A stretch of 64,000 nt of DNA from the NCBI RefSeq assembly GCF_000014425.1, contig NC_008530.1, positions 310,001 through 374,000 of the forward strand. Direction: 5' to 3'. The notes under the pieces were generated by a model. That model did no database searches, was not told the origin of the DNA, and saw nothing but the letters and a program-made list of their open reading frames with translations. The translations under genes were made by a program, and so were the position numbers. Origin of the DNA: Lactobacillus gasseri ATCC 33323 = JCM 1131. GTDB taxonomy: Bacteria; Bacillota; Bacilli; Lactobacillales; Lactobacillaceae. Positions 40,106 through 44,353 of this stretch are shown here, piece by piece; the stretch's first letter is position 1, and each line of letters starts with the position of its first letter.

Positions 40106-40134
40106 TTGAGCAAAACGACGTAAATTAGTATACG
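40106..40134 (+). promoter_or_regulatory. rplM-rpsI promoter
   Basis: TTGAGC (40106-40111), a 17-bp spacer and TATACG (40129-40134). An alternative is TTGACT (40098-40103) with TAAATT (40121-40126), also 17 bp apart. Confidence 0.6.
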
Positions 40135-40200
40135 TATGTTTGTCCACGATAGGCCCCGGAAACTTATTGTTTGTCAAACAGAAGAAAAACGGAGGAATTT
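40135..40200 (+). ncRNA. Candidate L13 leader upstream of rplM
   Basis: A closing stem TGTTTG/CAAACA (40137-40142 with 40175-40180) encloses CCACGATAGGCCCCGGAAAC. A regulatory L13 leader is known upstream of rplM in Firmicutes. Position and compact fold fit, but no covariance model was run. Confidence 0.55.
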
Positions 40201-40660: not shown

Positions 40661-41056
40661 ATGGCACAACAAGCAGCTTACGCTGGAACTGGTCGTCGTA
40701 AAGATTCTGTTGCCCGCGTACGTTTAGTACCAGGTAACGGTCAAATTACCATTAACAAAGAAGACGTAACTAAGTACATTCCATACCCTAACTTGGTTCA
40801 AGATATGAAGCAACCATTAGCATTAACTGAAACTGAAGGTCAATACAACGTTGAAGTTAATGTTAACGGTGGTGGCTTCTCAGGACAAGCTGGTGCAATT
40901 CGTTTAGGTATTGCACGTGCACTTCTTGAAGTTGACCCAGATTTCCGTGGTCCACTTAAGAAGGCTGGTATGTTAACTCGTGACCCAAGAATGAAGGAAA
41001 GAAAGAAGCCAGGTTTGAAGAAAGCCCGCAAAGCTTCACAATTCTCAAAGCGTTAA
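40661..41056 (+). CDS. rpsI: 30S ribosomal protein S9
   Basis: Its C-terminal tail reaches the P-site tRNA. 131 aa with [16 protein letters not shown] and the conserved end [19 protein letters not shown] precedes ATG 40661. Ends the rplM-rpsI operon. Confidence 0.98.
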
Positions 41057-41178: not shown

Positions 41179-41619
41179 ATGATTATATACACTAGATATA
41201 AATTTAATGGTGAAGTATTATTTTCAAGATTTATCAATTTTGAAGAGATAATGGATCGTAAATATAGTTGCTTAGGACAAATGACTCGAGTAACTATAAA
41301 AGGTAGAAAGACTTATGAAGGTTTTGCTGATGAACCTTATTTGTCAAATAAAGGTAAATGCTTAACTTTAATATGGTATGATATCGACTATGGCACTTTA
41401 GGGTTAAGAAGTGGTAAAGTAACCACAATATTTATACCATTAGATATAATTATTGGAATTGAGTCAATTTTGCATAGTAATCCACGTTGGGGACATCCAC
41501 CAATTAATGAATTTGTTTTTAGTAGTGAATTAAGATCAAGATTAATGAAACTGCATGAAAAATATATGCAAAGTGAAGAAAAAAGTAGGCCAAAAAAGAT
41601 ATATTTAAACTTCGATTAA
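41179..41619 (+). CDS. Hypothetical protein, 146 aa
   Basis: I do not recognise this protein. It is soluble, with no signal peptide or membrane helix. The central part (TRVTIKGRKTYEGFADEP, then LTLIWYDIDYGTLGLRSG and TIFIPLDIIIGI) alternates hydrophobic and polar residues as in a small beta barrel. The C-terminus is helical and charged. ATG 41179 has only a weak AGGGAAT upstream. It stands alone between the rpsI terminator and the NmrA-like gene, and its codon use is more AT-rich than its ribosomal neighbours, so it may be a later arrival. Confidence 0.75.
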   Translation: MIIYTRYKFNGEVLFSRFINFEEIMDRKYSCLGQMTRVTIKGRKTYEGFADEPYLSNKGKCLTLIWYDIDYGTLGLRSGKVTTIFIPLDIIIGIESILHSNPRWGHPPINEFVFSSELRSRLMKLHEKYMQSEEKSRPKKIYLNFD

Positions 41620-42580: not shown

Positions 42581-42608
42581 TTCAAGTTAAAATAAAAGAT
42601 GTTATACT
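42581..42608 (+). promoter_or_regulatory. Promoter of the stand-alone RNA
   Basis: TTCAAG (42581-42586), a 16-bp spacer and TATACT (42603-42608) preceded by TG (extended -10). Confidence 0.65.
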
Positions 42609-42614
42609 ATGGAT

Positions 42615-42795
42615 AGTAAGTGCTAAGAGAAAATTAATTGTAATTAAAGTGTAGATGCAGAGCTGAGTAAGACCGTAGGCATGTTTTTGTACTACACGGA
42701 TTTTTAGCTTAGGGATGAGGTTAAAAGTCAACTTTTAACTGCTATATACGAAAAAGAGATCAGACATTAAAATCTGATCTCTTTTTCGTTAGATT
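42615..42795 (+). ncRNA. Stand-alone structured RNA of about 175 nt, unidentified
   Basis: It has its own promoter, four stems and a terminator, and no open frame above 8 codons. CTAAG (42623-42627) can pair with CTTAG (about 42708-42712), enclosing TTAATT/AATTAA and GTGTAG/CTACAC with ATGC/GCAT inside. Then comes GTTAAAAG/CTTTTAAC (42720-42727 with 42732-42739) and the terminator. The next gene is on the opposite strand, so this is not a 5' leader. It could be a Lactobacillales small RNA, perhaps 6S-like; I could not assign a family. Confidence 0.7.
42748..42795. terminator. Bidirectional terminator
   Basis: A perfect 17-bp stem ACGAAAAAGAGATCAGA and its complement (42748-42764 with 42773-42789). 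The T-rich arm lies on either strand, serving the RNA and the convergent DJ-1 gene. Confidence 0.9.
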
Positions 42796-42801
42796 TATTA
42801 G

Positions 42802-43386
42802 TTAAAGACTAGCGTCAATATTTTTAGCTAAGTAGTCGTAAAGCATACCCTTTTCTAGGTCACTGGTATCGTGCCCAAGCGTCCGAGCAATAGTGTAAGC
42901 ATATGCCCAAGCAGTAGCTGGACCACGGCTAGTGATAATCTTGTGTTCTTTATCAACAACAGTAATATCAGTGCTAAAGTGACCGTTTGGACATTCTTCT
43001 TCGATTTGTTTTTCAAAGCCTGGATAACAAGTGTAGTTAGCACCTTCTAATAAACCATAGTGCCCTAAAGCAATTGGAGCTGCACACATTGCGGCATCCC
43101 ACTTGCCAGCCTTATTTCTTTGAATCATCAAGTCTGCAAGCTTCTTATTATTTCTTAAATTCAAAGCTCCAGTTCTGCCACCAGGGAAAGCAACAAGATC
43201 ATAATCAAGAAGTGAATCATCCACAACTTTATCACAAGTAAGCAAGATATGATGGTCACCATCAATTTCTTTTTTATCTAGACCAACCATGTCACAGTCA
43301 ATATTTAAACGACGTAAGACATCAACGACACTTAGGCCTTCAACTTCTTCACAACCGTCTGCAAAGACAACAGCTACTTTTGTCAT
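42802..43386 (-). CDS. DJ-1/PfpI family protein
   Basis: 194 aa, glutamine-amidotransferase-like fold. It starts MTKVAVVFADGCEEVEG, giving the acidic residue that supports the active cysteine. The nucleophile elbow is AAMCAAPIAL, followed by SRGPATAWAYA. This is the DJ-1/ThiJ group (deglycase, stress or chaperone roles); the exact activity is not settled for bacterial members. AAGGAGG precedes ATG on the minus strand. Monocistronic. Confidence 0.9.
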   Translation of the reverse strand: MTKVAVVFADGCEEVEGLSVVDVLRRLNIDCDMVGLDKKEIDGDHHILLTCDKVVDDSLLDYDLVAFPGGRTGALNLRNNKKLADLMIQRNKAGKWDAAMCAAPIALGHYGLLEGANYTCYPGFEKQIEEECPNGHFSTDITVVDKEHKIITSRGPATAWAYAYTIARTLGHDTSDLEKGMLYDYLAKNIDASL

Positions 43387-43663: not shown

Positions 43664-44353
43664 ATGGCTACTGAAGTTTATTTAGTAAGACATGGAGAAA
43701 CGATGTTTAATCAGTTGAATAAAGTTCAAGGTTGGGCTGATTCTCCATTGACTGTCAAAGGAATTAATGATTTGAAGGTAACTGCTTCTAATTTATCGCA
43801 GGTTCACTTTGATAAAATGTACAGTTCTGACTTGAAGCGAGCCATTGATACGGTTCACTTAATTGCAGATACAAATGAGGTTTCAGAAATTGGCAAAATA
43901 AAGAAGCTTCCAGCCTTTCGCGAGGTATTTTTTGGAACTTTTGAAGGCGACGATATTGATGAAACTTGGGAAAAAGTTGCAAAAGCTGGTGGCATGAAAC
44001 CAACGAGTGATGTAGTAAAAATTATTCAGACACTTGGGATCCATGATTTCCGTGAAGCTACTAAAAAGGCTGATCCCCGTCATTTAGCTGAAGATGCTGA
44101 GGCACTAGATAATCGTATGGATCAAGCAATTAGTCAATTAGCCCAAGAAACTAAAGGATTAGGAAGAGTATTAGTAGTATCTCATGGTGATTTTATTAAG
44201 ACTTTAGGGATTAAATATTGGGATCAAGCAAGTGGTGATCATGATATCCCATTTCCTGATAATGGCAGCGTTACTCGCGGAATTATTGACAATAGTGGAA
44301 AATTTAGAATTATTAATTATGGTGTCAAAAATACTGATATTCCAAATTTATAA
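43664..44353 (+). CDS. Histidine phosphatase family protein
   Basis: 229 aa. It has the phosphohistidine motif LVRHGETMFN at residues 7-16, and the second catalytic His in VVSHGDFIKTLG. The acidic partner region is REVFFGTFEGDD. It belongs to the phosphoglycerate mutase superfamily but lacks PGM-specific features, so a phosphatase is more likely. AAGAGGG precedes ATG 43664. The 277-nt gap upstream holds no gene that I can support and only weak promoter-like boxes. Confidence 0.88.
   Translation: MATEVYLVRHGETMFNQLNKVQGWADSPLTVKGINDLKVTASNLSQVHFDKMYSSDLKRAIDTVHLIADTNEVSEIGKIKKLPAFREVFFGTFEGDDIDETWEKVAKAGGMKPTSDVVKIIQTLGIHDFREATKKADPRHLAEDAEALDNRMDQAISQLAQETKGLGRVLVVSHGDFIKTLGIKYWDQASGDHDIPFPDNGSVTRGIIDNSGKFRIINYGVKNTDIPNL

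Follow-up and report, generated by a model that had tools for sequence, protein, structure and literature searches.

A predicted small RNA gene apparently confined to one Lactobacillus species group, probably arisen beside a pre-existing terminator

Results

Layout of the locus

The stretch of DNA analysed here, hereafter the window, comprises 64,000 nucleotides (bases 310001-374000) of the 1,894,360-base genome of Lactobacillus gasseri. At 42600-42789 on its plus strand, an extended -10 element, a noncoding body of ~172 nt and a perfect 17-bp terminator follow one another between the gene for an NmrA-like protein and the convergent gene for a DJ-1/PfpI family protein (Table 1). The extended -10 proposed in a preliminary description of this DNA was confirmed by reading: TG lies at 42600-42601 and TATACT at 42603-42608, and the TG-N-TATACT motif is kept in 8 of the 9 genomes found to carry the RNA. 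The -35 element is poor, with a weak TTCAAG 16 bp upstream, and the extended -10 was not among the sites returned by a consensus promoter scan over 1.4 kb (5 promoter-like sites versus 6.0 expected). Judged by promoter spacing, transcription from the extended -10 would start near 42615. In the one deviating genome, G022 (L. johnsonii ATCC 33200), the -10 hexamer has decayed and a TATAAT is present ~10 nt further downstream; the start site of the RNA may be shifted there.

The terminator arms are 100% complementary, as originally described, and a terminator scan called the 17-bp hairpin on the plus strand only. Its symmetric A-run and U-run suggest that it probably also ends the convergent DJ-1/PfpI transcript. 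The claim that no gene follows on the same strand likewise proved correct, as the next gene (42802-43386) is convergent and the nearest plus-strand gene 3′ of the RNA begins at 43664. Both a promoter and an intrinsic terminator of the RNA's own can therefore be read from the sequence, the terminator being also called by the scan and the promoter not. Elsewhere in the window, at 40133-40184, lies an ordinary ribosomal protein L13 leader (RF00555, 50.3 bits).

Table 1. Features of the predicted small RNA locus, in window coordinates.
Feature	Position	Strand	Remarks
Upstream flank: NmrA-like NAD(P)H-binding protein, 288 aa	41689..42555	+	Pfam PF05368; context, outside the RNA
Promoter region	42581..42614	+	weak -35-like TTCAAG 42581-42586; extended -10 TG-T-TATACT 42600-42608; read from sequence
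Predicted small RNA, ~172 nt	42615..42786	+	ends inferred from promoter spacing and the U-run 42782-42786
Near-invariant 5′ segment	42615..42649	+	core GUGCUAAGAGAAAAUUAAUUGUAAUUA; 96% identity between sub-groups
First hairpin, GUGUAG...CUACAC	42649..42697	+	conserved loop AAGACCGUA at 42669-42677; alignment of 8 sequences
Second hairpin	42699..42729	+	sequence diverged, pairing kept; 12 pairs, 3 changed on both sides
Terminator, perfect 17 bp	42748..42789	+	arms 42748-42764 / 42773-42789, 100% complementary
Downstream convergent flank: DJ-1/PfpI family protein, 194 aa	42802..43386	-	Pfam PF01965; context

Distribution among genomes

Covariance model R1 found homologs of the RNA in 9 of 75 genomes of the genus, each carrier giving a single match at E <= 0.01, and the same nine gave long matches in a DNA search. 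Besides L. gasseri, the carriers include L. taiwanensis DSM 21401 and L. johnsonii ATCC 33200. The arrangement of the window, with the NmrA gene before the RNA and the convergent DJ-1 gene after it, recurs in all 8 other carriers (9/9 synteny). Among 301 genomes sampled from the family and 395 from the order, 7 and 7 matched, all belonging to this genus and to the nine carriers; the other genera in these samples gave no match under strict filters, which lose weak matches. Plasmid and phage collections contained no match to the RNA, and the 5′ motif was not found in viral contigs. In the genomes searched, the putative RNA gene looks confined to one Lactobacillus species group.

Several weaker matches were set aside. 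The DNA search had listed 17 genomes of the genus at E <= 0.01, nine of which were counted as homologs; the matches in the 8 further genomes were short (20-41 bases, E 0.0004-0.007) and fell to the terminator region, to loci L015/L017 and to loci L016/L018. The L016/L018 matches apparently lie within a coding region, L015 (a match to 36 nt of the RNA; R1 0.17) lies inside a gene for a DUF285/MucBP surface-type protein, and L017, also a match to 36 nt, gave no match with R1. Likewise, 0 of 28 viral-contig matches to the short loop pattern matched R1 at E <= 1. A pattern scan of genome contigs returned 6 stretches, from L. johnsonii, L. taiwanensis, two uncultured Lactobacillus bins, Flavobacterium and Lutibacter; the Flavobacterium stretch had no R1 match, and the short, weak match in Lutibacter (22.1 bits; E 0.004 over 22 kb that had been selected because it holds the motif) was taken as chance. 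In G022, a leader-like stretch (L042 1300-1900, minus strand) gave a weak second R1 match (E 0.06 and 0.012); it is T-box-like by eye, Rfam did not confirm a T-box leader at cut-off, and the candidate was dropped as weak.

Conservation between sub-groups

The carriers fall into two sub-groups, the window with G033 and G020 versus the others, and identities were compared over 15 between-group pairs, omitting G069 as a near-duplicate of G071. The 5′ 35 nt of the RNA are 96% identical between sub-groups versus 43% for the four-fold sites of the upstream NmrA gene, a conservation beyond neutral expectation, and the RNA is therefore under selection. Identity amounts to 82% in the promoter region, 83% in the first hairpin, 63% in the second hairpin segment (42698-42730), 84% in the 3′ segment and 91% in the terminator, and to 47% in the 16-nt spacer just upstream of the promoter; gaps are uncounted in these values and average 2.0 for the 5′ segment and 3.5 for the first hairpin.

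Folding and covariation

The full RNA folds better than its shuffles (z = -4.25) because of the terminator: The body without it is no better than shuffles, with z = -0.52 in the window and values of -1.20 to +0.92 across eight sequences including the window, one of the eight stretches being displaced by 10 nt. Thermodynamics therefore gives no support to the folded RNA with four stems of the preliminary description. What stands of that claim is a single hairpin, at 42699-42729, the only one in which we saw covariation; the other stems are unproven. In eight sequences, 96.8% of its cells are paired and 3 of its 12 pairs carry changes on both sides. In 500 shuffles, the percentage paired, the count of both-side cells and the covariation score always stayed below the observed values, whereas 205/500 had at least as many pairs changed on both sides and 466/500 at least as many further pair types; such controls are weak for a set of 8 related sequences. 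The covariation check in relatives proposed earlier thus gave a signal for this hairpin and not for the first one, whose outer 5 pairs are invariant in 8/8 sequences and therefore silent on pairing (the sixth is present in 5/8, with 3 gapped). No pair of its closing stem changed on both sides, which we counted against the small RNA reading. It is evolution, not thermodynamics, that supports a functional RNA at this locus.

Conservation and predicted accessibility coincide in the 5′ segment and in the loop AAGACCGUA, the latter with a mean unpaired probability of 0.58-0.94. Since the body is not unusually stable and its conserved stretches are accessible, these features suit an RNA that pairs more than they suit a rigid scaffold. 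The segment GUGUAG..GCAG could pair either with CUACAC, as in the first hairpin, or with CUGYUAUAUAC just 5′ of the terminator. The two helices of the latter arrangement are paired in 100% and 93.8% of cells and are nearly invariant (5/5 and 2/4 pairs never vary). The RNA may therefore switch between two folds.

The 9-mer AAGACCGUA was also encountered outside the window, there followed by UACGGUU, in a stretch (L165 3-740, minus strand; genome C1 ~92199-92539) that covers the upstream region of a CitMHS-family transporter gene to about codon 27. The stretch is almost invariant in nucleotides across 8 genomes of the group, while the downstream codons vary; the ninth carrier, G069 (79% complete), gave a 26-base match only. 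The shared 9-mer may be a coincidence, because most outgroups retain the K-D-R codons.

An empty site in related genomes

An NmrA relative at E <= 1e-30 is present in 26 of the 75 genomes of the genus, and a DJ-1 search matched in 69. Our empty-site comparison covers the genomes with the NmrA relative: Nine are carriers, six have the two genes as an adjacent convergent pair lacking the RNA, and in eleven the genes are not together (different contigs, far apart, or DJ-1 match absent). The gap between the two genes measures 33-58 nt in 6/6 adjacent noncarriers versus 225-252 nt in the nine carriers, and in all six it holds little besides a terminator-like hairpin. One of these six relatives is 59% complete and one has a partial NmrA match, which we counted against the comparison. 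Because the site is empty in all six, a gain of promoter and body in the ancestor of the group is the simplest account, and the RNA gene probably arose there beside a pre-existing terminator. Loss in the other relatives, which would need repeated clean deletions, is possible. No duplicate of the added part, nor any source for it, was found in the L. gasseri genome, where the other matches correspond to the terminator, and no direct repeats of at least 10 nt were found flanking the RNA gene.

Search for pairing targets

A search of 6 genomes gave 58 matches to the 9-nt complement of the loop, five of them the RNA itself. Forty were examined (all but the 5 self-matches, 11 matches in G020 and 2 in G071) and fell into 27 groups, one of which is common to all five genomes compared. 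That group was rejected as a target, as the mRNA there carries the same sequence and not the complement; its duplex energies are uninformative, since they ignore accessibility and involve long AU-rich stretches. Across the five genomes compared, no perfect 9-nt loop complement was found that is conserved at a start codon throughout. Ranked by duplex energy only, the start regions of 57 window genes, NmrA being excluded because no ribosome-binding site was recognised, showed no clear outlier (best z -2.5). The DJ-1 start region ranked 27, 50 and 13 for the three RNA segments tried, and the genes at 41281-41619 and 40661-41056 ranked 3 and 8 with the 5′ segment and 7 and 5 with the loop. In counts over six genomes, TACGGTCTT occurred 8-11 times per genome versus 23-39 times for a reversed control.

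Comparison with 6S RNA and Rfam families

Rfam 15 gave no family at the gathering cut-off in the RNA region, and the 13 weak matches at E <= 10 are all far below their cut-offs and mostly on the terminator stem. The scan with 6S and other small RNA models that had been suggested thus returned nothing at cut-off for this RNA. That tmRNA, SRP RNA and RNase P would not fit was borne out by the absence of any such match at cut-off, and the suggestion of a new small RNA is backed by conservation, synteny and the lack of a Rfam match at cut-off. The other suggestion, a 6S-like RNA, did not hold up. RF00013 had no match at E <= 10 in the 291 nt of the RNA region; it also had none genome-wide at E <= 0.001, in a setting where the control search matched in 5/14 genomes. 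6S RNA is reported to be 160-200 nt long and, in lactic acid bacteria, usually to be flanked by rarA and uspA (PMC8414754). The same L. gasseri genome has a Lacto-usp RNA (96.6 bits), listed as a motif of Lactobacillales in PMC2864571, between rarA and a Usp-family gene, an interval that also contains a 94-codon frame. The usual 6S place is therefore taken, and we infer that Lacto-usp corresponds to 6S RNA.

The RNA described here resembles 6S RNA (RF00013) in being a stand-alone gene of comparable length (PMC8414754), and Lacto-usp RNA (RF01710) in being a stand-alone gene. It differs from both in lying between NmrA and DJ-1 and not at rarA-uspA, in being unmatched by the models, in its branched fold (as predicted, versus a rod with a central bulge) and in its limitation to a single species group among the genomes searched; moreover, the genome already has a separate Lacto-usp RNA.

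Discussion

The comparative data indicate that the small RNA gene is real, undescribed in the literature searched (a full-text search, with subscription journals mostly outside it, found no description of the RNA) and ordinary in kind. We lean, slightly more than evenly, toward a stand-alone, clade-specific small RNA gene that was born in the ancestor of the group next to an existing terminator and acts in trans by pairing. The RNA would be transcribed from the extended -10, share its terminator with the convergent DJ-1 gene, and pair with mRNAs made elsewhere, contact being made by the invariant 5′ segment, the AAGACCGUA hairpin loop or both. Such pairing would proceed independently of Hfq, which to our knowledge lactobacilli lack. 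Pairing is here the default reading, not a finding. Intergenic small RNAs that act in trans are found in Firmicutes lacking Hfq, such as the csRNAs of streptococci. The likeness to them concerns the way of working only, namely, a short RNA with its own promoter, an intrinsic terminator and conserved stretches predicted to be accessible; a sequence relation was compared through Rfam only, and the RNA differs from them in showing neither a known regulator's site nor a known target.

A serious rival, although an unlikely one, is that the partner of the RNA is a protein (RNA polymerase, an RNA-binding regulator or an RNase) and not an mRNA with which it pairs. The strict conservation of the 5′ segment and of the 3′ CUGYUAUAUAC, even where these are predicted to be paired, would suit such a role, as would the failure of the searches with the loop 9-mer and the 57 start regions to yield a target; the body is however only as stable as its shuffles, and neither 6S, SRP, RNase P, tmRNA nor any other Rfam family matched at cut-off. 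An orphan cis-regulatory leader, that is, a riboswitch or attenuator whose gene is gone, would explain the order of promoter, structure and terminator as well as the two well-paired alternatives open to GUGUAG..GCAG. We consider it improbable, since the convergent DJ-1 gene comes next in 9/9 carriers and no same-strand gene directly follows, read-through would run antisense into DJ-1, and the alternative helix overlaps just the first bases of the 17-bp terminator. Slightly less probable still is that there is no gene, but a conserved spacer functioning only as a terminator. The terminator is indeed the most stable part, and relatives have a terminator-like hairpin alone, yet promoter and body are conserved far above four-fold sites, and those same relatives do without them.

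A small coding gene or a type I toxin-antitoxin pair seems very improbable. The earlier claim of no ORF above 8 codons can be upheld at the threshold of 12 codons used for listing, as no plus-strand ORF of at least 12 codons begins inside the transcript in the window. A GTG frame of 28-29 codons is open in 5 of the 8 homologs examined (G071, G059, G023, G022 and G070), and the indels between G071 and G059 total 3 nt and preserve it. By reading, however, only 5 codons of this frame are open in the window, G033 and G020, no ribosome-binding site precedes it, and it changes mostly at first and second codon positions; no frame spans all eight homologs, as expected of a noncoding RNA. On the minus strand, a partly hydrophobic frame of 49 codons in the window shortens to 31 codons in G033, and no such frame of at least 40 codons was seen for the RNA in the other homologs among the ORFs listed (the G070 list spans extra sequence). 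The least probable reading, to which we give hardly any weight, takes the RNA as the 6S homolog of the species group. Its length of ~172 nt, its own promoter and terminator, and the absence of an RF00013 match in the genome at E <= 0.001 would speak for this; against it stand the occupation of the rarA-Usp interval, the usual 6S position in lactic acid bacteria (PMC8414754), by Lacto-usp, the failure of RF00013 here even at E <= 10, the branched predicted fold, and the 66 of 75 genomes of the genus that have no match.

Returning to the stand-alone small RNA gene, we find the case evenly balanced for its being a datable birth of a functional gene, in which a convergent gene pair acquired a promoter and a body of ~130-150 nt on the upstream side of its terminator and the resulting RNA then came under strong constraint. 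If so, the newly fixed gene could be compared base by base with the ancestral empty site, and the empty site in relatives would provide a clean case of a small RNA gene starting by borrowing an existing terminator. In these commensal lactobacilli the predicted RNA is under strong constraint, Rfam has no family for it, and its restriction to this one group would make a knock-out comparison of close species straightforward.
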